A DNA stretch of 64,000 bases, from positions 310,001-374,000 of the forward strand of contig NZ_FMCS01000003.1 in the NCBI RefSeq assembly GCF_900091435.1. The letters run 5' to 3'. The DNA comes from Micromonospora chaiyaphumensis. GTDB taxonomy: Bacteria > Actinomycetota > Actinomycetes > Mycobacteriales > Micromonosporaceae. The notes beneath the pieces were generated by a model. It saw only the letters and a list, made by a program, of their open reading frames with translations. It did no database searches and was not told the DNA's origin. A program made the position numbers and the translations under genes. Of the stretch, positions 9,879 through 50,352 are shown in pieces (positions within the stretch are counted from its first letter, which is position 1; each line of letters opens with the position of its first letter).

Positions 9879-12046
9879 TGAACACCGGAGCCACCCTGCG
9901 GATGCTGGACCGCGCCGACAAGGAGGTCATGAAGCTCACCCGCGCGGACATCGGCGCGGTCTATGAGTTCATGCATAAGTTCCGGCACAACCCGGAGAAT
10001 CCCGGCCTCAACCTGAAGGCGCTCAACGGCGACTCCCGGCTGATGTCCGCGCGGGTGAGCAAGGACTACCGTGCGCTGCTTCTCCACATCGCCGACCGGG
10101 ACTATCTGCTCGTCGCGGTCAAGCATCGCGGCGAGGTGTACGACGACCTTTCCCGGTACGCGTACCGGATCAACCGGGTCACCGGTGGCATCGAAGTTGT
10201 CGACCTTGCGCCGGTCGGCGACAGCATCGTCGGTCGGGTCGTACCCCCGCCCGCCGACCCTGAGCCTGCCCAGAAGCCGCTGTTCGACGCGTACACCGAC
10301 GCCCAACTTCTGGAACTGGGCGTCTCCGAGCCGCTGCTGCCGCAGATCCGGGAACTCACCACCGAGGCCGAACTGCTGGAGCTACTGGACCGGGCGCCGC
10401 AGCTCACCACTGATGTCCTGTTCGCGCTCTTCGACGGCACCCCCTACGACGAGGTGCTCCAGCAGGTCACCGACCCGGTACGTGCCGACGAGCCGGTCGA
10501 CCCGGAGGACTTCGAAGCGGCGGTGCAACGCCCCGCCACACAGGTCACCTCCGACGACGAGGCGCTGCAGGCCATCATCGGCGAGGCCTTCGAGCGGTGG
10601 CAGATCTTCCTGCACCCCACCCAGCGCAAGCTCGTCGAGAAGAAGTACAACGGCCCCGCCCGGGTCGGCGGCGGTCCCGGCACCGGCAAGACCATCGTCG
10701 CGCTGCACCGGGTCGCCCATCTGGCCCGGCAACTGCCGCCCGGCACGGACAAGCCCATCCTGCTCACCACCTTCAACCGCAACCTCGCCGCCGACCTGCG
10801 GACCCGGCTGCTGGCCCTCGGCGGCCAGGAGCTGGTAGCGCGCGTCGACATCGTCAACATCGACCGCCTGGCCAGCCGGGTCGTGACCGAGGCGAAGGCG
10901 GGTGGTAGCCGGCGGGTCGTCGACGACAACCGGGTCTCCGAGCTGTGGAGCGAGTTCCTCCTCGAGACCGGCGAGTCCGGCTGGGACGCGGAGTTCCTGA
11001 CCGCCGAGTGGACCCAGGTGATCCTCGGTCAGGTGCTCAACTCCCGGACCGACTACTTCAAGGCACGTCGCCCCAACCGAGGCCGCAGCCTGACCCGCGT
11101 CGAACGAGACCAAATCTGGCAGCTGACCGAGCGGTTCACCACCTGGCTCGAAAGTCGCGGGGTCTGGACCTGGCGCCAGGTGGCCCAGCGGGCAGCACGC
11201 CTGGAGATGGACCGCGCAGCCGCTTCCAGCGAGTCGTCCGGCGGTTTCTACCGCCCGCGCTACCGCCACATCGTGGTCGACGAGGCGCAGGACCTCAGTG
11301 CCGCCCACTGGAAGATGCTGCGCGCCATGGTCATCCCCGGGCCGGACGACATGTTCCTCACCGGCGACACCCACCAGCGCATCTACGACAACCACGTGAC
11401 CCTGAGCAGCCTCGGCATCAACATCCGTGGCCGCTCGTCCCGCCTCACACTGAGCTACCGCACGACCCGTCAGATCCTCTCCGATGCTCTGCAGATCATG
11501 ACCGGGGAGGTGTACGACGACTTGGACGGTGGCGAGGAGAACCTGGCCGGCTACCGTTCGCTGTTGCGGGGCGGCCGACCGGTGTTCCGGGGTGCGGCTA
11601 CCTGGGCGCAGGAGCGGGACCTCATTGCCGAGCAGCTGCGGGGATGGGGCAACCCGACCGACGGCTCGGTGGCCATCTGCGTCCCCACGCGGGAACTTGC
11701 GGCGGACGTGATTAGCCGACTGGAAGCCGACGGACTCCCCGCCGTGGAGATCGGGCCCGACGGTCCGAAGCAGCCCGACGGCATCCACGTCGGCACCATG
11801 CACCGATTCAAGGGCCTTGAGTACCAGCGGATGATCATCGCGGCGGTCAGCGATGGCCTCGTGCCCCGGCAGATGATCAGCCGCTACCGGGACACCGATC
11901 CGAAGCGCTACCAGCGCGAGCGCCAACGGGACCGGTCCCTGCTGTTCGTGGCCGCCACCCGGCCCCGCGACGAGCTGGCAGTGTTCTGGCACGGCACGCC
12001 GAGCCCGTTCCTGACCGCCCGCCTCGTGCAGCGACAGCTAACGTAA
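9878..12046 (+). CDS. RelE-like domain fused to UvrD/Rep-family superfamily 1 helicase
   Basis: A 722-residue protein. Residues 1 to about 90 look like a RelE/ParE toxin fold: a KxLNGD...R.SKDYRALL pattern followed by HRGEVYDDL. The rest is a UvrD-type helicase: Walker A GGGPGTGKT (about 264-273), DEAQDLS (about 468), the YRTT motif (about 527), a GTMHRFKGLEYQ motif (about 640) and a final FVAATRPRDEL motif. It starts one base inside the stop of the DUF1998 helicase (TGATG), so it belongs to the same operon and probably unwinds DNA for the same system. Whether the RelE-like part still cuts mRNA or only binds nucleic acid cannot be told from sequence. Helicase function is secure; the toxin-like domain call is moderate. 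Confidence 0.85.
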   Translation: MNTGATLRMLDRADKEVMKLTRADIGAVYEFMHKFRHNPENPGLNLKALNGDSRLMSARVSKDYRALLLHIADRDYLLVAVKHRGEVYDDLSRYAYRINRVTGGIEVVDLAPVGDSIVGRVVPPPADPEPAQKPLFDAYTDAQLLELGVSEPLLPQIRELTTEAELLELLDRAPQLTTDVLFALFDGTPYDEVLQQVTDPVRADEPVDPEDFEAAVQRPATQVTSDDEALQAIIGEAFERWQIFLHPTQRKLVEKKYNGPARVGGGPGTGKTIVALHRVAHLARQLPPGTDKPILLTTFNRNLAADLRTRLLALGGQELVARVDIVNIDRLASRVVTEAKAGGSRRVVDDNRVSELWSEFLLETGESGWDAEFLTAEWTQVILGQVLNSRTDYFKARRPNRGRSLTRVERDQIWQLTERFTTWLESRGVWTWRQVAQRAARLEMDRAAASSESSGGFYRPRYRHIVVDEAQDLSAAHWKMLRAMVIPGPDDMFLTGDTHQRIYDNHVTLSSLGINIRGRSSRLTLSYRTTRQILSDALQIMTGEVYDDLDGGEENLAGYRSLLRGGRPVFRGAATWAQERDLIAEQLRGWGNPTDGSVAICVPTRELAADVISRLEADGLPAVEIGPDGPKQPDGIHVGTMHRFKGLEYQRMIIAAVSDGLVPRQMISRYRDTDPKRYQRERQRDRSLLFVAATRPRDELAVFWHGTPSPFLTARLVQRQLT

Positions 12047-12090: not shown

Positions 12091-13311
12091 GTGCAGGCGC
12101 GGGACCGTATTGGCGACCGGTACGAGCTGACGTATCCGGTCGGCCGCGGCGGAATGGGGCAGGTCTGGGCGGGCTACGACGAGCGGCTCGACCGGCCGGT
12201 AGCGGTCAAGTTCCTCCGCCAAATGGAAGTGCCCGAGGACGGGCGCGAGGCCGCCGTCAAACGCTTCCGAAGGGAAGCCAGGGTCACCGCCCGGCTCGAC
12301 CACCCCGGGGTACCGGCTGTTCACGACCTCGGTCAGCACGGCGACGACCTCTACCTCGTCATGCAGCTCATACCCGGGATGGTCCTCGCCGACCTGATTG
12401 CCGAGGAGGAGGAACTTGCCGTCGCCCGGTCGGCCTCAATCGCCGCGCAAGTGTGCGACGTGCTGGCCGCCGCACACGCTGCCTCACTGGTGCACCGCGA
12501 CCTCAAGCCGCAGAACCTCATGATCACGCCGGTCGGCACGGTGAAGGTCCTCGACTTCGGCGTCGCCGCCCTGCTCGACCCCGCAGAGGCCTCACGGCTC
12601 ACCGCAACCGGCCACACGCTCGGCACGCCCGCCTACATCGCGCCAGAACAAGCAGAGGGCGGCCCGGTAGGCCCGGGCACAGATCTGTATGCCCTCGGCT
12701 GCATCCTGTTCGAGATGCTCACCGGCCGCCCGCCATACGACGCCGAAACCGCCCTCAACATGCTGCACCAGCACAGGCGCGGACCTATTCCGATCGTCAC
12801 CGAGCACCGGCGTGACGTGCCCGACGACCTGGCCCACCTGCTGTTCTGCCTACTCGCGAAGGATCCCGCCGAACGACCCGCCTCAGCCGCCGAGGTCGGC
12901 CAACTGCTCGCCCCATTCGCCGATGGAAAGGGAGCCCGGAACACTGCGGTGACAGCAGCGAGGGAACATCCCGCGGTGGCATCGACCCAGCAAACAGCAG
13001 AAACGCCGAGACAGCTGCACGCACGAGCCATCGAACTGGCGGAGGAGGAGCGCTTCGTGCAGGCCGCGGACGTGCTCGCGGCCGCCTTGGCAGCGCATCA
13101 GTCACCGCCTCTCGACGACGCTACGAGGGTGCGCCTGCGCTTCGAACTTGCCACGCTGCGCATGCTCGGCGGGGACTCTCGCGATGCCCAGCACGACTTC
13201 GAGGTACTGGCCCGTGAGGTCGAAGGGCGAGATAGCGACCTCGCTGACGAGTGCCGACGGCGAGCTCGAGCGTGCCAGTCAGGCGGGCAGCCGATGAGCC
13301 TTGAGCCGTAG
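12091..13311 (+). CDS. Hanks-type Ser/Thr protein kinase, soluble, with C-terminal helical repeat region
   Basis: Phosphorylates Ser/Thr in target proteins. It shows a complete kinase core: glycine loop GRGGMGQV (about residues 19-26), catalytic Lys in VAVKFL (about 38), HRDLKPQN (about 136), DFG (about 155) and APEQ (about 185). After about residue 275 comes a helical, TPR-like tail with repeated ELAEEE and ADVLAAAL stretches instead of the PASTA or transmembrane segments typical of PknB, so the enzyme is probably cytoplasmic. The GTG start is chosen because GGGGAG lies 8-13 bases upstream. It sits 44 bp after the UvrD-like gene on the same strand and is probably cotranscribed, suggesting control of, or signalling from, the methylase/helicase module. 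A kinase also occurs in Pgl/BREX type 2 (PglW), but no PglZ is present here. Targets are unknown. Confidence 0.93.
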   Translation: MQARDRIGDRYELTYPVGRGGMGQVWAGYDERLDRPVAVKFLRQMEVPEDGREAAVKRFRREARVTARLDHPGVPAVHDLGQHGDDLYLVMQLIPGMVLADLIAEEEELAVARSASIAAQVCDVLAAAHAASLVHRDLKPQNLMITPVGTVKVLDFGVAALLDPAEASRLTATGHTLGTPAYIAPEQAEGGPVGPGTDLYALGCILFEMLTGRPPYDAETALNMLHQHRRGPIPIVTEHRRDVPDDLAHLLFCLLAKDPAERPASAAEVGQLLAPFADGKGARNTAVTAAREHPAVASTQQTAETPRQLHARAIELAEEERFVQAADVLAAALAAHQSPPLDDATRVRLRFELATLRMLGGDSRDAQHDFEVLAREVEGRDSDLADECRRRARACQSGGQPMSLEP

Positions 13312-15032: not shown

Positions 15033-15151
15033 CAGGTGAACGTCGGCGTCGGCAACTCGACCCGGGACGGGCCGGCTGTCCTTGAACCACGCCGCGCCTC
15101 GTGGGAGGGTCCCCCCATGCTGGAGCAACACGTGCCCGCAGGACCTGCGGC

Positions 15152-15598
15152 ATGAGGCTGCTCCGCGCGCGGCGGCACCTCAACGGCAGCGAATGCCGGG
15201 CGATCATTGCGGCGGCGGCGACGCTCGCTTCGATGTTCAACATCGCGTGGAGAGTCGCGGATAACGCAGCGGGCCAGAGCCCCGCGGCGCTGGCCGGCAG
15301 TCTCAGCGAGGCCCGCCGGGACGGCAGCACGTTTCTCGTTCCCGGACAGGCGCGAGGCTGGTTCGACCTGAGCTTCGACATCCCGGACACGAGGTATGCC
15401 CTGGCCCTGATTCTCGTGTGGTCGTTCGCCGCGGCCGGGACACCGGACGGTGGTGCCCCGGCCGGGAGCCATGTGTCAGTAGCGATGTGGCATCTGCGCC
15501 ACCTCTTGCCGCGCTCGGCACACCGCGCGCTCGCCGACATCGAGTACGCCTTCGCGCAGTTCAATCCGCCAGCACACACGGACGCCCGGGTCGGCTGA
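15152..15598 (+). CDS. Hypothetical protein
   Basis: A possible 148-residue protein beginning MRLLRARRHLNGSECR, with an alanine-rich helix (IIAAAATLASMFNIAW) and later a hydrophobic helix (ALALILVWSFAAAG). The ribosome site is weak and no family was recognised. Codon positions look like coding DNA, but an in-frame start upstream (15101) is also possible. It ends 7 bp before the convergent end of the minus-strand operon. Confidence 0.45.
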   Translation: MRLLRARRHLNGSECRAIIAAAATLASMFNIAWRVADNAAGQSPAALAGSLSEARRDGSTFLVPGQARGWFDLSFDIPDTRYALALILVWSFAAAGTPDGGAPAGSHVSVAMWHLRHLLPRSAHRALADIEYAFAQFNPPAHTDARVG

Positions 15599-15604
15599 GC
15601 AGGC

Positions 15605-16561
15605 TCACCTTAGGTCGGGAGGCTCCCGCCTGGCGGCCCTCTCCAGATGCATCAACAGCAGGAAAGGCTTGGCCCGCTGGGCTGCCTTTCGCCAGGTGAG
15701 TGCTCGGAGGCCGTACTTGAAGACGACCGTCGACGGTACGGTGGCACCCAGGACATCCCAGACCACCTCCTGTGCGACCTGACCGGCGATGCGCGGCCGG
15801 GCGAACTCCGCGACCGTCTCGCGGTAGCGGCGGGTCAACTCCCGCGCCGTCGCCTCCGGGGTCAGGACCGGGTCGAGGCCCCGCGACAGCGCGAGCAACG
15901 ACTCGTCGAGCAGGGTCCGGAAGTCGGCGTTGTAGCGACGGGACTGGACAATCTGGTCGACGCTGAGCTGGTCGAGTGAGCCGATCTGAAGCTGTCCCAG
16001 CACTTCCTTGACCACTGCGGCTTCGAAGCGTTGCGGTTGCGGCCGGCCGAGGCTTTGAGTGAGCTGAGCCTTCACCGCCGGGTTGGACAGCATGCCGTCC
16101 TGCCGCAGCTCGGAGGAGATGACGAGGGACGCCATGTGGTTGCGCAAGCTCACGATCTCCGCCGCGCCCTGCCGCAGCGCCCGCGTGTCCGTCTCGATCC
16201 GGCGGTACGCCTCCTCTCGGATCGCCCGCATCACCTCGTCCATCCGGGTCAGGCTTTCGCGCATCTGCCCCTGTGGGATGACCAGGTCAGCACGGCGTCC
16301 CTGCTTCGCGCCCTGGCCGAAGCGCACCCGGCCACCATCGTCGACCTCGTATTCGTAGCCCCAGAGCCCCAGGAGCCCGGCCTCCCGTAGCTCGTCTATC
16401 CGACGGTTGATCTCGGTGGCACGGTCCCGGTACGCCGCTGGGACCTCGAAGGAGGCCCGCAGCACCACGCGGTCGGAGAAGAACACGACCGACTGCAGCA
16501 CCTTGTCGAGGGTGTGCGTGTCCACGAGGCCGCTGTCGAGCAGCGTGAGTGACCGCATCAT
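15605..16561 (-). CDS. Unknown helical protein, last gene of the nucleotide/RM operon
   Basis: A 318-residue protein not recognised as any family. It starts MMRSLTLLDSGLVDTHTLDKVL; a short beta-rich N-terminal segment (VVFFSDRVVLRASFEVP) is followed by long charged helices up to about residue 280 and a basic end. No membrane segment, metal site or P-loop was seen. Its ATG overlaps the stop of the thymidylate-synthase-like gene (ATGA, 16558-16561), so its output is tied to that protein. An upstream extension of this frame to 17146 is open but only overlaps the TS-like gene in another frame. A partner, scaffold or immunity role is possible; none is shown. Confidence 0.75.
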   Translation of the reverse strand: MMRSLTLLDSGLVDTHTLDKVLQSVVFFSDRVVLRASFEVPAAYRDRATEINRRIDELREAGLLGLWGYEYEVDDGGRVRFGQGAKQGRRADLVIPQGQMRESLTRMDEVMRAIREEAYRRIETDTRALRQGAAEIVSLRNHMASLVISSELRQDGMLSNPAVKAQLTQSLGRPQPQRFEAAVVKEVLGQLQIGSLDQLSVDQIVQSRRYNADFRTLLDESLLALSRGLDPVLTPEATARELTRRYRETVAEFARPRIAGQVAQEVVWDVLGATVPSTVVFKYGLRALTWRKAAQRAKPFLLLMHLERAARREPPDLR

Positions 16562-17178
16562 TCCGCTCCCGCCAGGTAGGTGAGGTAATCCACCTCGTAC
16601 AGGTGCGCGCTGAACATGTGGTAGCAGATCTTGCTGCTGCGCAGCCCGAGCGCAAGGGCGGCGTCCGATGCCAGCTGCGCGAAGGTCAATAGCTCGGGTA
16701 CGAACCCGATCCAGACGTCGACGCTGCGGGCGGTGAGGAAGAGAACGAGGCCGTCGCCGACAATCCGGAGGGCACCGCCGACCGGGGACACCGGGAATGG
16801 GCCGCCCAGGTCCTCCTCCGGCCGCCACATGGAAAAGACCGCCGCCCTGCTGTGCTCGTCCTGCCGGAGCATTGCGATGGCCTGCTGGAACTGGTCGATC
16901 GGTGAGCCGTCCGCCGCGACCCATTCCCGTAATCGTTGGTAGAGCAGCGATGATTCCCGCTGGTCGCCGAAGATCCGGTCTCGGTAGTCCTTGATCAGTT
17001 CCGGGTAGAGGTAACCCTGTGGCGGTGTCAGGTCTGCCGGGTTCCGCAGCCAGACGGTGAGGCCCGGAATGTCGAAACAGATCCCGTGCCGTGTCGCGAC
17101 CCGCGCCGGCTGCCCTCGGGAGAAGGCCGACAGAACCTTGGGCCAACCGGAGGAAACGGTAGCTACCTCAAGCTCCAC
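16558..17178 (-). CDS. Thymidylate synthase-like protein lacking the catalytic cysteine
   Basis: A 206-residue protein with the signature order of the ThyA/dCMP-hydroxymethylase fold: DQFQQAIAMLRQDEHSRA (like DQ...L...SRR), then a short insertion, then LTARSVDVWIG (like RS.D...G) and AHLYEVDYL (like H.Y...H). The residues that hold dUMP phosphate and ribose (Arg of SR, Arg-Ser, His-x-Tyr) can be matched. In the region where active enzymes have Pro-Cys-His, this protein reads FPVSPVGG, with no Cys, and the usual Asn in FNI is also missing (PELLTF). It is therefore probably a nucleotide-binding pseudoenzyme or has another chemistry. It is shorter than ThyA (about 260). The GTG start is 27 bases after the HisG-like gene. 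A remote relationship is possible, so confidence is moderate. Confidence 0.65.
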   Translation of the reverse strand: MELEVATVSSGWPKVLSAFSRGQPARVATRHGICFDIPGLTVWLRNPADLTPPQGYLYPELIKDYRDRIFGDQRESSLLYQRLREWVAADGSPIDQFQQAIAMLRQDEHSRAAVFSMWRPEEDLGGPFPVSPVGGALRIVGDGLVLFLTARSVDVWIGFVPELLTFAQLASDAALALGLRSSKICYHMFSAHLYEVDYLTYLAGAE

Positions 17179-17205
17179 GCGACGATCTCCCAGACGATGT
17201 CGACC

Positions 17206-17886
17206 TCACCGGCGCAACCCTCCGTCGCGTTGCCGCGGTATTGGCTTGTCGGCACTCCCGCCCGGTGCCTGGCAGAAGCTTGGCAGTGGCAGCACCGGCA
17301 GCGACGGCAGGTCGATCAGCGTCTGCCCGGCGGGAGGCAGGGTACGCGTCACGACGCACACGTCGGTGGCGAGAAGCGGCACCTCCACGTCGAGACCGTT
17401 CGCGGCCAGGGTCTGCCCCGAGGTCACGAGCAGCAATCCGGCGCCGGTGTCGTCGGCGCGAATGACGCCTTCGGTGGACCCGTGCAGCCGTACGATCCGC
17501 ACTGGCTGAGGGTTCGCGCAGGCGGCGAGCCAGGCCCGGGTGATGGCCGGATATTCGGTGTAGATGGTGTGTGGCGTTCGGCCGGCGACCGTGCAGTAGG
17601 TGACAAATGATGTCCGAGCCGGCGGCAACGCCCGGATGGTGAGCGACTGGCCGCTTGCAAGGCACCATTCGACGCACACGTCATAGCCGGTGATGCCGAT
17701 GTCGACGGCTTCCGAAGCCACGAGTTCTGGTACGTCGAAGCCCCGACAGTGGACAAGCGAATCCGCGCCTATGCGGTGCCACAATGACCTCGGATGCGCC
17801 TCGTCATTTCTGGCGAAGCGGCTACCGATGGCGTCGGCGACCGGGCCGTACAGTCGGCTCGATGATCCGGGGACGGCGACTATCAC
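17206..17886 (-). CDS. HisG-like (short form) phosphoribosyltransferase
   Basis: A 226-residue protein resembling the catalytic part of ATP phosphoribosyltransferase. Matching blocks are VDIGITGYDVCVE (HisG D-GITG-D--E), IYTEYPAITRAWL (ATKYP-like block), VRLHGSTEG (L-GS-E) and the PRPP-binding loop TSGQTLAANGL. There is no C-terminal ACT-like regulatory domain, as in short HisG forms that need HisZ, and no histidine genes are nearby. It probably uses PRPP and a purine or related base, but the substrate may not be ATP. The GTG start overlaps the stop of the deoxyribosyltransferase-like gene (GTGA, 17883-17886). The operon setting suggests alteration of nucleotides instead of histidine synthesis. 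Confidence 0.7.
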   Translation of the reverse strand: MIVAVPGSSSRLYGPVADAIGSRFARNDEAHPRSLWHRIGADSLVHCRGFDVPELVASEAVDIGITGYDVCVEWCLASGQSLTIRALPPARTSFVTYCTVAGRTPHTIYTEYPAITRAWLAACANPQPVRIVRLHGSTEGVIRADDTGAGLLLVTSGQTLAANGLDVEVPLLATDVCVVTRTLPPAGQTLIDLPSLPVLPLPSFCQAPGGSADKPIPRQRDGGLRR

Positions 17887-18296
17887 TGCGTTCGGCCCGC
17901 TGCTCCGGCCCTGGCCACCGACCGCAGCGCTGGGCCGATCTCCTCGACCGGAACCACCGCGTCGACCAGCGCCCGGAGTGCGAACTCGGTTGGCTGTTCG
18001 GAGAACAGGATGGCCTTGCCCTGCCCCGCGGCGTAGCCGACCTCGATGCATACGCTCACGCCCGCGTATCCGCCCGTAGCTACGACGAATATCGCGTCCG
18101 ACTTGGCAATCTTGGCGAGGAAGTCGTGGGTGAGCCGAACCTTGTCCGACTCGCCGACCGTCACTTGCTGTTCGTTGAAGTCGTAGCGAGGGGTATGGAC
18201 GGTCATGCCCAGGTCACGGAACGCAGCCTCGGCACGCTGGGCTGTGTCGTAGAACTTGGAGCTGCTGCATATCGTGATCGCCTTGATTTCCGGCAT
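17883..18296 (-). CDS. Nucleoside 2-deoxyribosyltransferase-like protein
   Basis: A 137-residue protein of the NDT/MilB/RCL superfamily, enzymes that cleave or exchange the N-glycosidic bond of (deoxy)nucleosides or nucleotides. It shows an N-terminal beta strand (AITICSSSKF), the SDAIFVVATGGYAG segment and the motif CIEVGYA, whose Glu matches the family nucleophile, followed by KAILFSE. Length is normal. The ATG at 18296 has a strong GGAGG site. It follows the radical SAM gene by 30 bases and overlaps the HisG-like gene. In this company it may release or swap a base, in the way MilB acts next to a TS-like enzyme in mildiomycin synthesis; that parallel is inference. Confidence 0.8.
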   Translation of the reverse strand: MPEIKAITICSSSKFYDTAQRAEAAFRDLGMTVHTPRYDFNEQQVTVGESDKVRLTHDFLAKIAKSDAIFVVATGGYAGVSVCIEVGYAAGQGKAILFSEQPTEFALRALVDAVVPVEEIGPALRSVARAGAAGRTQ

Positions 18297-18326
18297 GGAT
18301 CCTCCGAGTGTTGTCGGTACTCGTGC

Positions 18327-19331
18327 TCAGCTGAGCGGTACCAGATGACGAGGTTCGTCGAGGTACCCGACACCGGTGTGCCGTCGCAGAATCTCCTCCC
18401 ACACCATCGAAGGCGCTTCGGATTCGTTGGGTAGGGGCAGCTTCCGGCGGTCGGCGAGAGCGGGGTAGTCCAGGTGGAAGGGGCGCACCGCGAGTCGCTG
18501 CGGGAGCCCCGGGCTGATTAGGGCCAACTCGTGAAAGGTCCTGTCGAGTTGCTCTGCGGTCCAGTCACTGGCGCCGACCGCTGGAAACAGATCGAACCCA
18601 AGCTCGAGTGCCAGGACGATCCCGTCGCGGATGGCGGGCCAGTCGCCGCTGCCGGGCGGGTGATGCAGCGTCGTGTGAACCTTGACGCGCCGCAGCTCCT
18701 CGCGCTCGGCCGCGGAGAGCCGAAGACCGCTCTGCTGCCAGGCGTACGGCAGGGCGGAAAGGTTGGACTCCACCTTCAAGACGACGGACCCGAGCAGGTC
18801 CCGCGCTGCCAGACAGCGGTAGATCTCGATCACCAGGGAAGGCGCGAGCAGAGGCTCCCCGCCGCTCACACGCAACAGGCTAAGCTGTTTTCCGGCAGCC
18901 TCGGCCGTGCGTCTGAGCGCGAGGAACTCGTCCACCACACCGTCGGCGCTCGTGATAAAGGCGTCCTGACCGGCGAGATGGCGGTAGTCAACGTAGCAGT
19001 AGGAACAGCGGAAGTTGCAGGCGGCGACGTGCGTGATCGCAGCGAGGTTGTACTCCGACCAGTGTCCACCGAGCTCCGCCGCCACCGTCACCGGACTGTC
19101 GGACAGATTGGCCACATGCCGCAACCCCGCGAACTCCGGCAGGGAGGTGGGTAAGCGCATCCGGTCCCGCCGCACCGGCGTGAAGAAGCGGAACTGCCGG
19201 CCCTGCACACCGCCAAGATCCGTTTTGCGAAGATCGGTGAAGGCGTAATCGCCGCCACCGATGTTTACGATCCGATGCGCCCTGAGCAGTATCGGCCGCT
19301 CCTTCGCGCCGCTACCAGGCGAGGCGTCCAT
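18327..19331 (-). CDS. Radical SAM enzyme
   Basis: A 334-residue radical SAM protein. The 4Fe-4S site is CNFRCSYC (CX3CX2C, about residues 102-109) and the SAM-binding GGEP motif follows at about 156. The first 90 residues form an unusual N-terminal domain. After the barrel there is no SPASM-type Cys cluster, so only one cluster is expected. The sequence around the Cys motif does not look like viperin. The ATG overlaps the stop of the methyltransferase-nuclease gene by one base (TGATG), so the two are coupled. The substrate is unknown; the neighbours suggest a nucleoside, nucleotide or base. Confidence 0.88.
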   Translation of the reverse strand: MDASPGSGAKERPILLRAHRIVNIGGGDYAFTDLRKTDLGGVQGRQFRFFTPVRRDRMRLPTSLPEFAGLRHVANLSDSPVTVAAELGGHWSEYNLAAITHVAACNFRCSYCYVDYRHLAGQDAFITSADGVVDEFLALRRTAEAAGKQLSLLRVSGGEPLLAPSLVIEIYRCLAARDLLGSVVLKVESNLSALPYAWQQSGLRLSAAEREELRRVKVHTTLHHPPGSGDWPAIRDGIVLALELGFDLFPAVGASDWTAEQLDRTFHELALISPGLPQRLAVRPFHLDYPALADRRKLPLPNESEAPSMVWEEILRRHTGVGYLDEPRHLVPLS

Positions 19332-22300
19332 CAGCTGAGCATTTCCATGACGACCGCCTCGATCTCGTCGGTGGCAGGGTGGCGTGCGAGCTCGGCTCGG
19401 ACCTGGCGGCGCAACGTCACGAAGTTCGCGCCCTCGGCCAGATGTAACCCGGCGATGGTCTCAGACTGCTGCTGGCCGAGTTCTGCGAGCCGCTGGTGCT
19501 GGCCGTTCACGTCATCGAAGTGGGGAATGGGCAGGTTCCACACGTGCTTGTCGATGTCGCGCTCGTCCTTGCCGTAGGACATCATTGGTCGGACAAGGTC
19601 GGTCAGCGCGCTGCTGTTCAGGATCGCCGAGAGGAAGAAGCCCTCCTCGCGGGTGGCGATGGGTGCCCAGTAGAGCTTGTGCTCGACGACCGCGGCTGGC
19701 TCATCCACGATCGCGGCCGCGACATGCATCCCGGAGGCGGTGTAGGCCAGCCGCAGAGGCGGCGCCGGGAACTGGGCGGTGAGCCCGCGATGAAAGTCGA
19801 GTCGTTCGCTCAGGGTGAGGCGTCCGCTGCTGCGGTGCGCCTCCCAGGTGGTCTCCGCCTTCTGCCACCACTCGGCAAGGCCGACGTAGTAGTCCAGCCC
19901 GGAGTCAGGCCCGGTCATCAGCGTGGAACCGTCGAGCGGGAGCACCGCCTTCTTCGCCGTCAGGATCCGATAGGGCAGCAGGCATTCGCCGAGCAGCACA
20001 GAGCGGATGAATTCGCTCTCCACGACGCCTTCGAGTGCGGGCAACTCCTTCCACGGGGCCTTCTCCAGGTTGCTCCGCGCAGAGCGAACGGCGTGGCGGC
20101 CAGCACCCAGGCCGAGCCGTCCGCCCGTATCGGTCTCCACGAAGAAAAGGATCTTGGGGAAGATGGTCGCGCCGTTGCGCACGTGCGCCATGTACGGTGA
20201 CTCGGCGAGGGATGCCCGCCCCAACGGGGCAGGCTCCCGGTGAATGGATGGCGAGATCTCTGCCCATGTCCTGGCATCGGCGACGAGGCGTCCCGTCCAC
20301 CGGTCGGTGACCGGTGGGAGGCCGCGAGGACTGCCCGTGGCCGCCTTGTTGCCGAAGACGACACTGGCGCCCCGCGGAAAGGGATGCGGACGTAGGCGGC
20401 GCAGGTCCCAGGAGCCGGTGAAGGCAACATCGGTCGGCTCGACCTTGTCCTTGTATCGCCCGCTGCGGAAAGCTTCGAAGTGCTCACGGTCGAGCACGGC
20501 GTTGGGCAGGACGAAAGCGAACGCGCCGCCGTCGCGGAGATACTGCTGAATGGTTCTGGCGACGAAAAGAGCCGAGAGGTCCTGCTGGGTTGCGAACTGG
20601 TTGCCACGCCACAGCCCGCGATCGTGGGACAGCCTCTTGAACATCGCCTGCATACCCGGCGGCATGTGGCGATAGGAGAGCCACGGCGGGTTGCCGATCA
20701 GGACGTCCACCCGGTTGTCGTCCATGGCAAGCCAGACGGGCCGGGCGAGGTTGCGTAGGTAGTAGCTCCAAATATGGTCGCGGCCCTCGTCGTGCAGTCG
20801 GCACATCGCCTCGAAGGTGCTGCGGATCATCGCCTGATCGTCCGGCCCGATCTCCATGTGGTGGAAGAACGCCGCCAGCGACGGCGGGTTGTCCGGATCT
20901 CGCGGCTTAGCCGCGATCGTGGCCAGCCGCGCGACGATCTGATCGAAGCGGCTCGGCTCGTTGAGCAGGCCCTTCGGAAAGCGAAGCCACTCCTCGACCT
21001 CGCTGGTGTTGTAGCCGGCGCTGATCCGCACGTGCTCTTCGGTGAAGAGGTCGCGGCGTTCGCGCCACTGCATGCTGTCGCCGAGATATACCGGGATGGT
21101 GATGGGACCCCGCTCGCCGGCGAGCCGTTGATGGCCGATGGCGAGCAGATAGGTCACACGTGCGAGCGCCACGGCGACCGGGTGCAGGTCGACGCCGACC
21201 ACGTGGTCGGTGAGTTGCGTCAGCGCGACATCCAGCGACAGGTCCGCCGTCTCGGCGGCGGCCAGATATCGGCGTACGGCGTGGAACAGGAAGGTGCCCG
21301 AGCCGCAGGCGGGGTCCAGCACCCGTTGCCGTAGCGGATCGGCGACAAAGGTGTCGACGAGGTGCTCGGCGAGCCAGTCGGGCGTGTAGTACTCGCCCAT
21401 GCGCTTGCGCGTTTCGGGCCCGATCATCGACTCGTAGAGCACCTTGAGGATGTCGTGGTCGGCTTGCCGCCAGTCGAAGCGCGCCAGGCGCCGGGTGAGT
21501 CCCTGGATGAACTCCCGACCGCCGGGCACCTCGGTGGTCCAGCCGAAGAAGTCGTGTTCGACCACGCCCAGGATGCGGGCCCGGTCGAACCGCTGCCCGG
21601 TGATGAGGTCCTGCGGCTGCAACGCCAAGGCGTCGATGTCGAGGACCAGGTGCGCGATGATGTACGCGCTGTTCATCAGCAGGGTGTGCTCGACGAACAG
21701 ATCCCGGTCGTCGACGAACTGGGTGCCCAGGGCGCTGTCCAGCAGCTCCGCCCACAGCTTCCGCTTCAACCTCACCGTCGGCAGCTGCTCGTGCTCGGCG
21801 TAGAGCGCCGCGAGCGCGGCGCGATCCAGCTTGTGAGAGGTGCTCTGTGCGCCGAGGCGGCGAGCCACCTCCGCGGGCGCCGGCCGGACCCGCTGGCTTG
21901 TCGCCAGCACTCCTTCCAGCCAGTAGAAGAGGGCCAGGCCGTCGGGGCGATTGGCGGCCAACGTGTGGGTGTCAATGAGCGCTAATCGCTTGCCAGACAG
22001 CTGGTACGCGCGCCACGTGGCGCCGTCGGTGAGGATGCCGACGTATCGCTGGCCGCTCTCCAAGCTGCGCGACCGTACGTAGCCGCCGAGCTGGCGTTCA
22101 GCCTCCAGCAGCGAGCGTCCGGCGTGGAGACGGCGTTTGACCTCGATGATGGTGTAGCCGACCTCGATGTCGATACGCCGGCCGCCGCCCGCCGCGGCTT
22201 CGAGATCGACGTCGTCGAGATGAGCGCCGGAGAGCCCGAAGTCGCCGGCCAGCAGAAGTTGGCGAATGTCGGCTTGCAGGGTTGCTTCGCTGCGGGCGGC

Positions 22301-22429
22301 TCGCCGGTCGGCGATTCGGGCCAGCAGCGGCTGCAGTGACGGGGGGAAACCGTCGGGGGCGCGTGCCTGCGACCGGGGAGGTGAAGGGCGGCGCCGGCTT
22401 CCGTCTGGCGTACCGTCCGAGCGGGCCAT
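19331..22429 (-). CDS. Type IIG-like restriction enzyme: PD-(D/E)XK nuclease fused to N6-adenine methyltransferase
   Basis: A 1032-residue fusion. The N-terminal nuclease core is RIDIEVGYTIIEVKRRL (D...EVK, about residues 86-102). The methyltransferase part has GEYYTPDWL, motif I LDPACGSGTF (about 370) and motif IV NPPW (about 579), then a C-terminal target-recognition region. This order (nuclease, helical linker, methylase, recognition) is that of single-chain type IIG/IIL enzymes and related defence proteins. The ATG at 22429 is the first good start and faces mcrB across a 240-base gap. It is the first gene of a six-gene operon whose other members act on nucleotides or carry radical chemistry, which is unusual for a restriction enzyme. 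Confidence 0.85.
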   Translation of the reverse strand: MARSDGTPDGSRRRPSPPRSQARAPDGFPPSLQPLLARIADRRAARSEATLQADIRQLLLAGDFGLSGAHLDDVDLEAAAGGGRRIDIEVGYTIIEVKRRLHAGRSLLEAERQLGGYVRSRSLESGQRYVGILTDGATWRAYQLSGKRLALIDTHTLAANRPDGLALFYWLEGVLATSQRVRPAPAEVARRLGAQSTSHKLDRAALAALYAEHEQLPTVRLKRKLWAELLDSALGTQFVDDRDLFVEHTLLMNSAYIIAHLVLDIDALALQPQDLITGQRFDRARILGVVEHDFFGWTTEVPGGREFIQGLTRRLARFDWRQADHDILKVLYESMIGPETRKRMGEYYTPDWLAEHLVDTFVADPLRQRVLDPACGSGTFLFHAVRRYLAAAETADLSLDVALTQLTDHVVGVDLHPVAVALARVTYLLAIGHQRLAGERGPITIPVYLGDSMQWRERRDLFTEEHVRISAGYNTSEVEEWLRFPKGLLNEPSRFDQIVARLATIAAKPRDPDNPPSLAAFFHHMEIGPDDQAMIRSTFEAMCRLHDEGRDHIWSYYLRNLARPVWLAMDDNRVDVLIGNPPWLSYRHMPPGMQAMFKRLSHDRGLWRGNQFATQQDLSALFVARTIQQYLRDGGAFAFVLPNAVLDREHFEAFRSGRYKDKVEPTDVAFTGSWDLRRLRPHPFPRGASVVFGNKAATGSPRGLPPVTDRWTGRLVADARTWAEISPSIHREPAPLGRASLAESPYMAHVRNGATIFPKILFFVETDTGGRLGLGAGRHAVRSARSNLEKAPWKELPALEGVVESEFIRSVLLGECLLPYRILTAKKAVLPLDGSTLMTGPDSGLDYYVGLAEWWQKAETTWEAHRSSGRLTLSERLDFHRGLTAQFPAPPLRLAYTASGMHVAAAIVDEPAAVVEHKLYWAPIATREEGFFLSAILNSSALTDLVRPMMSYGKDERDIDKHVWNLPIPHFDDVNGQHQRLAELGQQQSETIAGLHLAEGANFVTLRRQVRAELARHPATDEIEAVVMEMLS

Positions 22430-22669: not shown

Positions 22670-24958
22670 GTGGAGAACGAGGCGATCATTCCCTCGCGAG
22701 ACGACGACTTGGTGCGGTCCGTCGGCCGCAGACTCATCGATGTGGGGCTCGGCCAGGGCGGTTCGCTGCTTGTTCCTGGCAGGCGGGCGTGGGCCCGGGA
22801 GACCGTGAGGGAGCTGTTCCGCGCCTACAACGAGCGCCCCGACGAGGGCTCTGATGCGTTCCTGGTCAAGTTGCACCGGCAGCTCGATGACGCCTCCGAT
22901 GAGGTCAAGTTGTTGGTTGCGGAGTTGTTGACCCTGCAGGCGCTTCCGCTGAGCAACCTCACCCCCGTGACCAAGCGCAGACGGGTTGAGGCTGTGCTGG
23001 CCTGGATGCGCACACCTTCGACCGTCCCAGAGGAGCTCGTTGCCGCTTTTCAGCAGAAGACCTGGAACGGGGGGACCGGCGCCCACACGATGTTGTGGAA
23101 GTGGCTGGCCGACGCGGTCGAGTTTCTCCTGGCCTGGTGGGCGCTACCTGAGCAACGGCGCGCTCTCGCTCTGAGCGACCCCTGGGCGTGGCAGGAGGTT
23201 GTGTACGAGAAGAAGCTAATGCCCTCGTTGCGGGAGGCGCTGCTCTACCTCGCGTTCCCCACGCATTTCTTGCCGATCGTCAACGTGGCCCACAAGCGGG
23301 CGATCCGCGACGCGTTCGCCCCAGGTGCCGCAGTGGCGCCGACGCCGGACCTCAACAGAGACCTGTTCCACATCACCACACAGGTGCAGAAGCGGGTCGG
23401 TGGGCAGCGAGTCGACTTCTACCGGCCGCCGTTTGCGAGTCAGTGGAAGCCGCCACCGCAGGGTCGGCGTGCCTGGCTCGTCCGGTCCCGGGCGAGTGAA
23501 GGCGTGCTCGACCAGTGGAAGAGCGACCAGGTCGTTTCGCTCGTGGCCACCCGCATCGGCCAGCTGCCTGCGGAATCAGAGCGATCCGTGGTGCGGTCAG
23601 CCGTGGATGCCGGGTTCGGGCATTTGGACTACGCCGGGCGGCTCGTGCTCGCCACGGAGTACCACGCCTTCCTGTCGCTGATCAACGTCGAGGACATCGT
23701 GGCGACAGTGGTCAACGACGAGCTGCACCTCGGCGTGATCGATGGGGAACCGGACTATGTCTTCGACGGAGACGAGCTGCTGCTGGTCAGACCGGTGCAG
23801 TGGGTGGCGATTAACCCGGTTCCGGTGGACACCCTCCCAGCGCCCCTTCCGGCGGAGCTGGATCAGCAGGGTGCTGTCGTTGACCTGACCGGTGCGTTGG
23901 AGGCGCTCACGGCTCTGATCGAGGAGGTGGTGGAGCCTCCCGGCCCCGAACCGCAGGGCAACAGTCGTAGCAGGCAGGCCCCGCAAACTGTGCAGGCGTT
24001 GCCGCCGGCTACCGGCGACCTCGCCGATCGCCTGAACCTTCCTCAGGACTGGTTGCAGAAGCTGCTCGATCTGTGGCAAGAGCGGTCCCAAGTCGTCCTG
24101 TTCGGCCCACCCGGCACGGGCAAGACGTTTATCGCCCAGGCAGTGGCCCGACACATCGCAGAACGGGACGCGATCCGTCTGGTCCAGTTCCACCCCTCGT
24201 ACGCCTACGAGGACTTCTTCGAAGGCTTCCGGCCAGTTGAGGGCGCAGACGGCGCGGGGGTGGGCTTCGCCAAGGTTCCCGGACCGCTTCGGGAGATCGC
24301 CGCAGCTGCCAAGGAGAATCCAAGCAAGCCGCACGTCTTGGTCATCGACGAGATCAATCGCGCCAACCTCGCGAAGGTCTTCGGAGAGCTGTACTTCCTC
24401 CTGGAGTACCGGCAGGCCACCGTACGCCTTCAGTACTCGCCGGCGGAGGCGTTCAACCTGCCGCCAAACGTCTTGCTCATCGGCACTATGAACACCGCCG
24501 ATCGGTCGATCGCGCTGGTCGATGCCGCCATCCGCCGCCGCTTCGCATTCGTCGAGCTGCACCCGGACGAGGAACCGGTCTCGTCGGTGCTGAACGTGTG
24601 GTTGAACAAGCAGGGCAAGGCCGATGACGAACGTCCCGCCCTGCTGGGCGCGCTCAACGCGGCGATCGGGGCCGCCGACCACGACTTCAAGATCGGCCCT
24701 TCCTACTTCATGCGCCCCACCGCGGAGCATGTCGACGGCCTCACACGGATTTGGGACCACGACCTCCTGCCGCTACTCGAGGAGCACTACGCGGGACGCC
24801 TATCACGCGCAGCGGTCCGCAGCCGGTTCGGGCTGCCCGCAATCCGCACGGCTATCGCCACACAAGGTCCCCCTAATCGGCGGGTAGGCGACGACACCGA
24901 CGCTGCGCGAGTCACCGTGCCAGCCCAGAACGCTGACGTCGCCGCGGGCCTGGCGTGA
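22670..24958 (+). CDS. mcrB: McrB-type AAA+ GTPase of type IV restriction system
   Basis: The motor of a modification-dependent restriction system; with McrC it translocates on and cuts modified DNA. It is 762 residues. Residues 1 to about 440 are a divergent region that should hold recognition of the modified base. The AAA+ core follows: FGPPGTGKTF (about 481-490), VIDEINRANL (about 560), IGTMNTADRS and the arginine finger RRRFAF (about 622). The DEINR and MNTADRS motifs are diagnostic for McrB. The GTG start has AGGGG upstream. The stop overlaps the mcrC start (GTGA). The N-terminal region is not one of the well-known EVE/DUF3578 domains as far as can be judged by eye. Confidence 0.9.
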   Translation: MENEAIIPSRDDDLVRSVGRRLIDVGLGQGGSLLVPGRRAWARETVRELFRAYNERPDEGSDAFLVKLHRQLDDASDEVKLLVAELLTLQALPLSNLTPVTKRRRVEAVLAWMRTPSTVPEELVAAFQQKTWNGGTGAHTMLWKWLADAVEFLLAWWALPEQRRALALSDPWAWQEVVYEKKLMPSLREALLYLAFPTHFLPIVNVAHKRAIRDAFAPGAAVAPTPDLNRDLFHITTQVQKRVGGQRVDFYRPPFASQWKPPPQGRRAWLVRSRASEGVLDQWKSDQVVSLVATRIGQLPAESERSVVRSAVDAGFGHLDYAGRLVLATEYHAFLSLINVEDIVATVVNDELHLGVIDGEPDYVFDGDELLLVRPVQWVAINPVPVDTLPAPLPAELDQQGAVVDLTGALEALTALIEEVVEPPGPEPQGNSRSRQAPQTVQALPPATGDLADRLNLPQDWLQKLLDLWQERSQVVLFGPPGTGKTFIAQAVARHIAERDAIRLVQFHPSYAYEDFFEGFRPVEGADGAGVGFAKVPGPLREIAAAAKENPSKPHVLVIDEINRANLAKVFGELYFLLEYRQATVRLQYSPAEAFNLPPNVLLIGTMNTADRSIALVDAAIRRRFAFVELHPDEEPVSSVLNVWLNKQGKADDERPALLGALNAAIGAADHDFKIGPSYFMRPTAEHVDGLTRIWDHDLLPLLEEHYAGRLSRAAVRSRFGLPAIRTAIATQGPPNRRVGDDTDAARVTVPAQNADVAAGLA

Positions 24959-26172
24959 ACACCAGCGCCACACCGGGTTCCATCGTCCTCACCGAGGTCG
25001 GATCCAAGGCGGTCGTGCTGGCACTGGACGACCACCAGGTCGCCGCGCTGCGTGCCGCGGGCCTCGTTACCGTGAGCCCTGTCGTCGGCGGCCAATGGAA
25101 GATCAAAGCCGGCCGAAAGGTCGGGGCAATCCGTGTCGGCAATCTCGAGATTGAGGTGACGCCCAAGGTCGGCCTTGCCAACATGCTCTTCTTCCTCGGC
25201 TACGCGACCAACCCCGGATTCCGCCCGGAAGACGTGGCCGGCGTCCCCACCGCCGGACTGTGGCCGGCCCTGGCCACATCACTGATTCGCTACACCCGTC
25301 GCGCACTCGCCTCCGGTCCGCTGCACGGATACGTCACCGTCGACGACGCCCTGCCGCTCGTACGCGGACGAATCCGGTTCGGCGACCACGCGGCCGCACG
25401 CCCCGGCGTGCCGCTACCGGTCGAGGTGCGGTACGACGACCACAGCAACGACATCCCGGAGAACCGTCTCCTGCGCACGGCCGTCCAACGCATGCTGGCC
25501 GTGCCGCGGCTACGCGACGCCGATCAGACTGATCTGACCGAGCTGGATGCCCGCCTGGCCGGGGTGCGCGTACTACCGCAAGGAGCTCCGCTGCCCGTGT
25601 GGCGTCCGAGCCGGCTCAACGCCCGATACGCCCCGGCGCTACGACTCAGCGAGCTGATTCTGCGGCACTGCTCCGCCGACCCCGGTGCCGGCCGCTATGC
25701 CATCGCAGCTTTCGTCGTCAACATGGAGAAGGTCTTCGAAGCGTTCATTGGCGTGGCCCTGCGCGAGGCGCTGTCTAGCTACGGTGGCCACACCGAGACA
25801 CCTGGCAAATGGCCGCTTGACGTAGGGCACGCCGTTCGAATCGAACCCGATGTCCTGCATATCATCGACGGCCAACCAGTGGCCGTCTTCGACGCCAAGT
25901 ACAAGATCGAGCCCGGTGCAGGGAAACCAACCAACGCCGACGTCTACCAGATGCTCGCCTACTGCACCGCGCTGAACTTACGCAGCGGTTGGATCCTCTA
26001 CGCCCAAGGCACAGAACCACCCACCACCTGGCCTATCCGCAACACCAACACCACCATCGGCTACCGGCCGCTCAACCTGCGCCAACCGCCTGAGCAACTC
26101 CTAAAAGACGTGAACATCCTTGCCCACCTCGCCATGCACGAAGCTGCTGCGCCGCTTCATCACCCCGCCTGA
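24955..26172 (+). CDS. mcrC: McrC nuclease subunit
   Basis: A 405-residue partner of McrB that carries the nuclease. The N-terminal region has the McrC pattern GNLEIEVTPKVG and the middle has DDHSNDIPENRLLRTA, typical of the family. The catalytic PD-(D/E)XK core is near residue 313: VFDAKYK, followed by NADVYQMLAY. The GTG at 24955 overlaps the mcrB stop. It is a complete gene, normal in length. Together with mcrB it forms an intact type IV system aimed at DNA carrying modified cytosines or similar bases. Confidence 0.9.
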   Translation: MNTSATPGSIVLTEVGSKAVVLALDDHQVAALRAAGLVTVSPVVGGQWKIKAGRKVGAIRVGNLEIEVTPKVGLANMLFFLGYATNPGFRPEDVAGVPTAGLWPALATSLIRYTRRALASGPLHGYVTVDDALPLVRGRIRFGDHAAARPGVPLPVEVRYDDHSNDIPENRLLRTAVQRMLAVPRLRDADQTDLTELDARLAGVRVLPQGAPLPVWRPSRLNARYAPALRLSELILRHCSADPGAGRYAIAAFVVNMEKVFEAFIGVALREALSSYGGHTETPGKWPLDVGHAVRIEPDVLHIIDGQPVAVFDAKYKIEPGAGKPTNADVYQMLAYCTALNLRSGWILYAQGTEPPTTWPIRNTNTTIGYRPLNLRQPPEQLLKDVNILAHLAMHEAAAPLHHPA

Positions 26173-34400: not shown

Positions 34401-34484
34401 CTGCACGTCGCCGTGACCAGCGGCCGAGTCCGGTTCGACCAAGAGGGACGTCTGACCCTGGGTCCACATGAGTCATCGACGTGA
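28449..34484 (+). CDS. DUF4011/DUF3320-type superfamily 1 helicase-nuclease with transglutaminase-like N-terminus
   Basis: A 2011-residue multidomain protein. An N-terminal beta-sandwich-like region is followed by a transglutaminase-like block (GNCLDLSVTYAACLEA ... EGHAFGGF, Cys about 232, His about 261). Then comes DUF4011 (KSLLDLSLRNPLLNLPKR). The SF1 helicase core has LEGPPGTGKSQT (about 706), IFDEASQI (about 1325), WHYRSHDESL (about 1400) and NVAITRARRQ (about 1563). Near 1630-1720 a Vsr/MTES_1575-type nuclease domain is suggested by DFTVDLAV and VAVMLDGPDWSARP. The end is DUF3320 (RRTDKIDKLLRYGL). The ATG follows GGAG. The protein stands alone, as such proteins often do in defence islands. 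Helicase call firm; the Cys-His site may be structural or proteolytic. Confidence 0.88.
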   Translation: MSDSVFAQFTADDDRLAVALLVQPAINAALLHNRVPLVRHLTLVNRGTGPLADVTLTLELLGPDGALTEPWTRTLTAPLRPGASTGWDDFRDVTPDRALLYRTDEAFPVDYRLTVEADGQALTMVAPSRVLAHNEWFNSPALYDSLAAFVQPNTRAVEAVLRSAAQILLARTGSGSLQGYQDGSERAALIAGAVYEALRQLEITYQTLPASFENSGQKVRTTAAVLDGRLGNCLDLSVTYAACLEAAGVHPLVFISEGHAFGGFLLEEERLGAAAVTETNLLISMVDSGRAVPVELTRIGPGTQSATFTEAVRVGLGHFRSEGHRLQGVIDIHLAHRSGIQPLPSADELVAPAPVDTETTPNAGASLDLPPGVAAAKLRQLADEGDEVPQPADGSPARIQQWRKSLLDLSLRNPLLNLPKRGRGLDLHVPAGALALLDDLIHDGRQVQVIPQDDISHVHELAGARRAQDLDAEILTRELRTDRRVYGAVTEARYKSAMRALQREARTMEQETGSNYLYLTIGTLVHTKTTGGEAYAPLFLLPVRIEGGSGRRPYAMVIDGTEVASPNYCLIEWLRVKHGVRIPELEQPVLDEHGIDIAKTLAAINTGLVDNRLNYRIDETASLRLLQFSTFQMWRDLGDHWPRFKENPVVRHLVESSGATFDDPARPDHDTDVAVDEGELHLPIPADGSQMQAIVMAERGQSFVLEGPPGTGKSQTITNMIARAVAAGRSVLFVAEKQAALEVVKRRLKQIGLGPFALDLHGRKQSLNAIRQQLRDALDQYDLGSDGDWMAVETAYRTRLAPLAEYPAQVHTANPVGMSLWSAYEQVLAYGDGPAAPVPVSYLHAPAEVRAQVETTLREFPAAARSARVRPEHPWALSGCRTLDGLHGAAVTEIAADLERLRADLAASPHLVGLLRTLPTPETVTELQAGAWLAVRGMLPDRETTVRAGDRRWDEAAARLQGELAAFHQGFAGELATFRPDVFARPELAAWHAETQEAAKKLLGKRKRRQAVVDKLAVHLVAGATLDVERVEVTTGRLVAAQAQAAALHQHAVALGGLRIPAWQPTNPDAQQRLAEAIEATRASRTLLARHPQAWELFQRGISDVDAALLDRVASRWRAWRGVLRSAEPELALWSAGSHWVDAWQRDGATWLHDLRSEELFPLRRWATVLTHADVLASAGLTDYRDQLLRAEVNGQFAEEAYRRGVAAASLGERVRAGGLQYFDPELHDDEIAQFETAAGELRAALPERLPSVLVRRRPFSPTDRRGRFADFAAELRRKRGGRSFRELFEQYPDAVLALTPCVLVSPASAANFLAPGSQRFNLVIFDEASQIRVAEAIGAMGRGSAVVVVGDSRQMPPSSIMQASHTVDDVDEGDGPVLEDLESILSEAVESGLPQRWLSWHYRSHDESLIAFSNRYYYDNKLSSLPSPGMSGSTGIAWRRVDGRYDRGGSRTNDVEARAVLADITRRLHDPATAGQSIGVVTFNIQQRDLILNLLEDSTDPIIREQLSGAVAEPIFVKNLENVQGDERDVVLFSLAFSTNPDTGQLPLNFGPLSQAGGERRLNVAITRARRQVVLFSSFNPSDIDLSRTSAVGTQHLRAYCEMAAAGVDRLGDLTTDRAERRSRIRDEVAAALRDRGHEVRTSHGLSDFTVDLAVRRPGSARWQVAVMLDGPDWSARPTVADRDLAPALLRTIMGWPEVVRFWLPAWIHDRSALLDRVDDAVAKADAPEPPAPAEAVAPHGTVELPTPRTAEDVEQVHLVELSGPRVAEDTDPATEVSPVPVTSLATAAVPAPVTDLATASAPAPVAGAPPATTGALEVRPFVPYTPTPLGDQNDLDLLATDQRVRGLVREALRETIAAEGPVEQHRLARLALARFGFLRTREDRRLAVLALVDARRLYGHPTVGRYAWPEETDPQTYRAYRVTQASNDRAFEEVPPEEVANAFVHVLQDVPSVDEERLLRAGLERLGYRRRTDKIDKLLRYGLHVAVTSGRVRFDQEGRLTLGPHESST

Positions 34485-50294: not shown

Positions 50295-50352
50295 CGCGGG
50301 GCGTCTCCTTGAAGCAGGGCCGGGCAGAACGGGGAGGGCGGGCCGGCGCTGG

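Follow-up and report, generated by a model that had tools for sequence, protein, structure and literature searches.

A patchily distributed gene cassette around a thymidylate-synthase-like protein without its catalytic cysteine in Micromonospora chaiyaphumensis and relatives: a candidate nucleotide-based antiviral defence

Why do genes for radical and nucleotide chemistry stand end to end with a restriction-methyltransferase gene in an actinomycete genome, and which of them belong to one system? The question is raised by a locus in a 64,000-nt stretch of the genome of Micromonospora chaiyaphumensis (NCBI RefSeq assembly GCF_900091435.1, contig NZ_FMCS01000003.1, positions 310,001–374,000), which was analyzed as a whole and is called the window below. 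The initial annotation had read six minus-strand open reading frames at 15605–22429, here A to F, as one operon. On re-examination, all six were present with the spacings that it gave: A and B overlap by 1 base (TGATG), B and C are 30 bases apart, C and D overlap by four (GTGA), D and E are 27 bases apart, and E and F overlap by four (ATGA). As a unit, however, the six genes held only in part, because B–F are coupled, A lies outside the conserved unit, and a further gene, G, convergent with F and ending 6 bases from it, had been overlooked. The genes, in window coordinates, are as follows.

A, 19331–22429, minus strand: type IIG restriction-methyltransferase (PADLOC REase_MTase_IIG, 1.8e-75; also Pfam N6_Mtase, 3.5e-13, and Eco57I, 2.3e-8); a neighbor outside the conserved cassette.
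B, 18327–19331, minus strand: radical SAM protein of 334 amino acids (Pfam Radical_SAM, 6.2e-7); variable module.
C, 17883–18296, minus strand: nucleoside 2-deoxyribosyltransferase (NDT)-like protein of 137 amino acids (Pfam Nuc_deoxyrib_tr, 2.1e-5); variable module.
D, 17206–17886, minus strand: short HisG-like (ATP phosphoribosyltransferase-like) protein of 226 amino acids (Pfam HisG, 2.2e-16); variable module.
E, 16558–17178, minus strand: thymidylate synthase (TS)-like protein of 206 amino acids without the catalytic Cys (Pfam Thymidylat_synt, 5.1e-10); constant core.
F, 15605–16561, minus strand: protein of 318 amino acids with no recognized family and no significant Pfam match; constant core.
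G, 15101–15598, plus strand, start probably at 15152: small protein of no recognized family, with homologous sequence beside F at all ten loci that have E; constant core.

Pairwise ratios of nonsynonymous to synonymous substitution rates (dN/dS) among the compared relatives were 0.10–0.31 for B–F, 0.21 for A (one pair), and 0.38–0.58 for G. A–F, with their low values, therefore behave as real genes.

The genes B–G were inherited together. A search of 300 genomes of the family with B gave nine matches, seven full-length and two broken fragments, and all seven genomes with a full-length B also held C, D, E, F, and the G sequence. A scan of GTDB r220 with the B alignment found six loci, in M. globbae, M. 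humi, Micromonospora sp. MW-13, and three Actinoplanes; only that of A. rectilineatus (L023) had been absent from the family search, giving eight loci of the kind found in the window (type I). B, C, D, E, and F lay within a single locus in all eight of these intact type-I loci. When E was used instead, an alignment search of 354 family genomes gave nine matches, namely seven type-I loci and the genomes G330 and G352, and in all nine F and G stood beside E. E-F-G occurred together at 10 of 10 loci, eight with B-C-D and two, in other genera, with different enzymes. Meanwhile, the arrangement was not fixed. In Actinoplanes, B-C-D lie on one strand and converge on E-F-G on the other, and G is on the same strand as F both there and in the two loci with different enzymes. 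That all six genes were kept despite this rearrangement is good evidence for a shared function. Among the five Micromonospora loci, the four-base overlap recurred at the C-D junction in four and at the E-F junction in all five. The G sequence carries an in-frame stop in A. cyaneus (L017) and a stop near the C-terminus in L023. Two more genes, H and one for a NUDIX protein, lie next to E in the three Actinoplanes loci; in MW-13, D carries a fused H remnant (61% over 46 residues). H (L016 13562–14134) matched nothing in Pfam or PADLOC, and its sole match among plasmids was an Alkaliphilus protein (24.5%) in an unrelated neighborhood.

Gene A behaved differently. When the joint occurrence of the six proteins across genomes was examined, as the initial annotation had proposed, B–F were together in every intact type-I locus, but A adjoined the cassette in only two of the ten loci with E, the window and M. 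globbae, which have an island in common; in M. globbae, A and B are separated by a gap of 114 bases rather than overlapping. A was absent from the region of about 20 kb around the other eight loci, where matches to it at 28–30% identity (L014 and L039) were other methyltransferases. A search of 40 relatives with A gave four matches: the window genome, G581, G545 (85%), and G634 (76%). In G581, about 0.55 Mb separates A (4,066,982–4,070,077) from B (4,624,458–4,625,435); two other Micromonospora, G545 and G634, have A without a match to E. A is an independent neighbor of the cassette, and its membership was rejected, since it is decoupled in eight of ten loci and occurs without E elsewhere. These observations also bear on the reading of the initial annotation, in which the adjacent A reads a modified nucleotide or DNA mark produced by the cassette. 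It is favored by the overlapping A and B genes of the window, by their adjacency in M. globbae, and by other methyltransferases in three more regions (PglX in L013 and L014, and an Eco57I/DrmMI-type enzyme in L039); nevertheless, given the separation of A from the cassette, it is already largely refuted, and we consider it very improbable.

In the regions of the two loci of G330 and G352, E, F, and G are present but B, C, and D are not. Their cassettes (type II) combine E-F-G with a GTP cyclohydrolase I, a split thiamine diphosphate (ThDP) enzyme, a phosphoribosyltransferase (PRTase)-like protein, and a NUDIX protein, and lie as follows.

L039, 9567–15239: type-II cassette.
L040, 4723–10333: type-II cassette.

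On the same strand, E-F-G are followed in order by genes for a small cupin-like protein (labeled by reading, with no Pfam match), GTP cyclohydrolase I, the two ThDP enzyme halves, the PRTase-like protein, and the NUDIX protein. With each family scanned in one of the two loci, Pfam gave 1.4e-40 for GTP cyclohydrolase I, 1.7e-8 and 2.9e-7 for the N and C halves of the ThDP enzyme, and 1.5e-10 for NUDIX; the phosphoribosyltransferase match was weak (0.004, below the cut-off). The PRTase-like protein was found in only one of 61 genomes searched, its own, and had no plasmid match; a single partial match in plasmids was found for its ThDP partner. Orthology could not be demonstrated between the type-II and Actinoplanes NUDIX proteins. 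The core proteins of type II are 60–61% (E) and 54–55% (F) identical to those of the window, a higher identity than that of the Actinoplanes type-I loci (48–50% for E and 49–51% for F). In our reading, E-F-G form a constant core, to which the remaining enzymes are added as an exchangeable module.

The cassette is rare, scattered and, in places, decayed. E was present in 5 of 160 Micromonospora genomes (G000, G581, G551, G390, and G558). Beyond the family, F in 394 genomes of the class and B in 296 genomes of the phylum each matched only the window's own gene, and a B profile in the 394 class genomes found the window and two weak partial matches. In the two genomes with broken copies, G541 and G440, C is retained, B and D are fragments, and the region contains no E, F, or G; these decayed type-I cassettes, in which the NDT-like gene is the only one of B–G that looks intact, lie as follows.

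L018, 8953–10061: decayed type-I cassette.
L019, 9637–10795: decayed type-I cassette.

At the search patterns used, no relatives of B, C, D, E, or F were found in viral contigs, and plasmids yielded none for B, C, D, or F; E had only two weak plasmid matches, both in Listeria and one of them annotated as thymidylate synthase. Carriage of the cassette by viruses or plasmids was rejected on these grounds. F, the sole protein searched in a phage collection, had no relatives there. This distribution is relevant to a metabolic explanation, in which the genes form an accessory pathway without a role in conflict, for instance one that salvages or repairs damaged nucleotides or serves a cofactor, and E is a carrier or regulator. 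Purifying selection on B–F would fit such a pathway, as would the NUDIX genes that adjoin the cassette in Actinoplanes and type II. However, presence in so few Micromonospora genomes, the decayed copies in G541 and G440, and flanking genes that differ between loci are not what it leads one to expect, and we judge it improbable.

What chemistry can be predicted for the cassette proteins? In an alignment of seven E proteins with Escherichia coli ThyA, the nucleotide-pocket residues Arg126, Arg166, Ser167, Asp169, His207, and Tyr209 of the ThyA family were retained, together with Gly173, but the catalytic Cys146 was not. Ser stands in its place, Pro in that of His147, and Glu in that of Asn177, and these three residues are invariant in all ten E proteins. 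In the excerpts available of PMC5175136, Cys155 is the reactive nucleophile of MilA, the TS-like CMP hydroxymethylase of mildiomycin synthesis; an Asp at the Asn177 position accompanies cytosine in MilA, BcmA, and T4 dCMP hydroxymethylase; and Arg and Ser in place of MilA Lys133 and Ala176 accompany deoxyribose. From these correspondences, we infer that E may bind a dCMP-like 2'-deoxyribonucleotide without carrying out a Cys-dependent one-carbon transfer. The initial annotation had pointed to the hydroxymethylcytosine route of mildiomycin, and this found no support: the column of MilA Cys155 is Ser in all ten E proteins. Because E has Ser for the catalytic Cys, a mildiomycin-type hydroxymethylation is unlikely, and hydroxymethylcytosine chemistry by E was rejected.

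For the module proteins, the assignments vary in firmness. C scored 25.1 bits in Pfam, under the curated 28.8, and gave a weak profile match to NDT structures (E-value of 0.03); its Glu85, invariant in an alignment of nine, is aligned with the conserved Glu of NDT, and according to the part of PMC4081090 at hand, the E103A variant of MilB, the NDT-like hydroxymethyl-CMP N-glycosidase of the mildiomycin pathway, had no hydrolysis activity. D matched a HisG structure by profile (8.4e-16) and, compared with E. coli HisG, retains the Arg, the GSxE motif, and the TSGxTLxxNGL loop; the ADAxxD stretch ahead of the phosphoribosyl pyrophosphate loop has lost both its Asp, with Leu for the Asp that precedes the loop, and its score is under the NCBIfam hisG equivalog cut-off (61.8 versus 75.75 bits). 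B has its CxxxCxxC motif at C105, C109, and C112, all three Cys being invariant in seven aligned sequences, with a long N-terminal extension ahead of this cluster motif; structure profile comparison found no close solved relative. In an alignment of ten F sequences, the other nine were 49–92% identical to that of the window, and a Pfam scan of eight returned only weak, scattered matches, the best being PIN (0.023) in one member. G gave a fair model (predicted local distance difference test score [pLDDT], 82) with no strong fold match. Its comparison with the Protein Data Bank gave scattered matches with Z ≤ 3.7 (a mycobacterial regulator, ArdC, PprI, and dual-specificity phosphatases), from which no conclusion was drawn, and no viral structure matched with an E-value ≤ 0.001. 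Pfam gave no match for G, and PADLOC-DB 2023 none for C, D, E, F, or G.

The neighborhood of the cassette in the window contains several further defense-related genes.

3450–9875: DruE-like helicase.
9878–12043: UvrD/GajB-like protein.
12091–13308: PD-T4-6-like kinase.
22670–26172: McrBC pair.
28449–34481: Hhe/PDC-S37 protein.
48459–50294: DISARM DrmB.
50356–53919: DISARM DrmA.

Judged by these sequence assignments, 3450–34481 together with 48459–53919 is a large defense island. M. globbae has the island in common with the window, plus a type I restriction enzyme. Two further genomes, G581 and M. humi, have flanking genes in common, and in both the cassette lies between BREX-2 PglX (860 and 1686 bits, respectively, with a cut-off of 400) and PglY (1627 and 1302 bits, under the cut-off of 1700, with the genes incomplete at the region edge), and a GmrSD/HEC-05 protein is encoded in between. 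In MW-13 (L015 10254–12760), a gene upstream of the cassette on the same strand encodes a 729-amino-acid protein that is caspase-like at the N-terminus (PADLOC, 3.7e-11) and has an EAL domain at the C-terminus (Pfam, 2.4e-22); it is followed, directly upstream of the cassette, by a gene for a 107-amino-acid protein without a family. In A. subtropicus (L016 6196–8781), an 861-amino-acid HD and PRTase-CE protein (PADLOC PRTase_III-A, 3.6e-17) is encoded upstream of B on the same strand; a literature search on PRTase-CE gave no paper. In G330, an Eco57I/DrmMI-type methyltransferase gene lies about 5 kb upstream. The earlier claim of a tight nucleotide-chemistry gene set linked to defense therefore fares unevenly: the coupling is real and a link to defense is plausible, several loci lying among defense genes, while the link to the restriction-methylase is not borne out.

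Two side observations were made at the BREX-2 loci. The genes between PglX and the cassette (L013 11048–19885 and L014 1139–7415) include two related proteins of about 400 amino acids and one of 987 amino acids, with no Pfam or PADLOC match. Near the cassette of M. humi, the product of L014 7693–8583 reads, by eye only, like an EVE-type reader of modified bases.

The best explanation, held with belief and doubt in about equal measure, is that the locus is a mobile intracellular cassette whose products synthesize a modified nucleotide and sense or handle it, most likely for antiviral defense. It starts from the co-inheritance of the genes, their retention through rearrangement, the second enzyme set, the patchy and decayed distribution, the placement in several defense islands, and the loss of the TS Cys from a nucleotide pocket that is otherwise largely kept. 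In an all-against-all comparison of 12 regions, with rough gene calls that missed some genes, no family outside the cassette reached more than 5 regions, a count attained by methyltransferases and by generic ABC ATPases; this also favors the proposal. A modified nucleotide would be a reasonable product of the cassette. The module of B, C, and D would build an unusual nucleotide, in which C might break or swap a glycosidic bond, D might form an N-phosphoribosyl bond, and B might perform radical chemistry on the base or sugar. E would bind a 2'-deoxyribonucleotide with a cytosine-like base, either the product of the module or a nucleotide of a phage-altered pool, and F and G would convert this binding into an effect, carrying it out or controlling it. 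The purpose would be intracellular defense against phage, through poisoning of replication or a nucleotide signal. A bolder form of this proposal, a new nucleotide-based immunity in which the Cys-less TS fold with its dCMP-type pocket is the receptor, F and G are the transducer or effector, and the synthesis modules are interchangeable, letting one sensing core use or detect various unusual nucleotides, is in our view doubtful.

Several observations weigh against a defensive cassette. The AlphaFold2 model of F was unusable (pLDDT, 36), and B had only a partial pVip match in PADLOC-DB 2023 (1.1e-8, residues 103–178). The independent defense contexts are few, as the window and M. globbae represent one island and G581 and M. 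humi another, and the proximity to defense genes is a raw co-location, without a background rate for random Micromonospora genes. When the regions were read by eye, A. cyaneus, A. rectilineatus, and G352 had no recognized defense neighbor. In A. cyaneus (L017 2865–5175), also by eye, an ABC-transporter pair (ATPase and permease) and a MerR-like regulator are encoded beside the NUDIX gene; none of these was seen at that position in the two remaining Actinoplanes loci. In the comparison of 12 regions, ABC ATPases occurred in 5, although they were related only generally. Furthermore, similar enzyme types (the HisG-like PenA, MilA, and MilB) serve the synthesis of nucleoside antibiotics.

These last points lead to another explanation, a small nucleoside natural-product (antibiotic) pathway in which the module makes the nucleoside, E-F-G tailor it or provide self-protection, and the defense genes are neighbors only because they share genomic islands with it. 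In the accessible parts of the cited papers, PenA acts in pentostatin synthesis (PMC12648386), MilA and MilB together make mildiomycin (PMC5175136, PMC4081090), and a nucleoside-antibiotic cluster can be as small as the three genes thmA–C (PMC12691670). The GTP cyclohydrolase, PRTase-like, and NUDIX genes of the second module would also suit a biosynthetic pathway, as would the transporter pair and regulator adjoining the A. cyaneus locus. Nevertheless, the loci have no exporter or regulator in common, and the most widespread candidate is the ABC ATPase group just mentioned; the cassette is nested inside a BREX-2 locus in two species; and the MilA-type catalytic Cys is absent from E. This pathway is the chief rival explanation; we lean against it, while regarding it as a real possibility. 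The A. cyaneus ABC pair and the BREX-2 nesting pull in opposite directions and left our estimates for the two explanations unchanged.

How does the cassette compare with known systems? The literature searches returned no paper that we recognized as describing this gene set. Mildiomycin synthesis is similar in combining a TS-like and an NDT-like enzyme in one gene set, in the acidic residue at the Asn177 position (Glu in the cassette E; Asp in MilA, BcmA, and the T4 enzyme), and in the Glu of the cassette C that is aligned with the NDT nucleophile (MilB Glu103). It differs in that the cassette E has Ser for the Cys nucleophile, so that the pair does not qualify as a MilA/MilB pair, and in that E has the deoxy-type Arg and Ser where MilA has Lys133 and Ala176; moreover, the excerpts at hand of PMC5175136 and PMC4081090 mention no HisG-like, F, or G gene. 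The pentostatin pathway likewise employs a HisG-like enzyme, PenA, outside histidine synthesis, but its PenB is a short-chain dehydrogenase, as stated in the available text of PMC12648386, and no cassette protein matches that family. D resembles short-form HisG in its catalytic-domain homology, the invariant Arg, the GSxE motif, and the TSGxTLxxNGL loop, and differs in the lost Asp residues and in falling short of the equivalog cut-off.

On the side of immunity, viperins are radical SAM enzymes that make antiviral nucleotides. Like prokaryotic viperins, B is a radical SAM protein in a defense island for which a nucleotide substrate is possible; unlike them, it is accompanied by five partner genes, and it matches the viperin model NCBIfam NF038283 only around the cluster motif. 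Its score of 33.4 bits, against a cut-off of 180, led us to reject membership of B in that family. A further precedent comes from DefensePredictor, which, in the portion of PMC13092281 available, reports a TS domain in an experimentally validated anti-phage system and makes a role in immunity plausible for a TS-fold protein; the terms radical SAM, HisG, and deoxyribosyltransferase are absent from the main text. If the defensive explanation is true, the cassette would represent a small-molecule branch of bacterial immunity, in which a fold of DNA-synthesis enzymes was repurposed as a nucleotide-binding core that cooperates with exchangeable synthesis genes. Were it a natural-product pathway, it would still yield a compound from a combination of enzymes (radical SAM, NDT-like, HisG-like, and Cys-less TS-like) that we did not find described. 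In either case, having two sister gene sets that share a core makes the role of that core directly testable.

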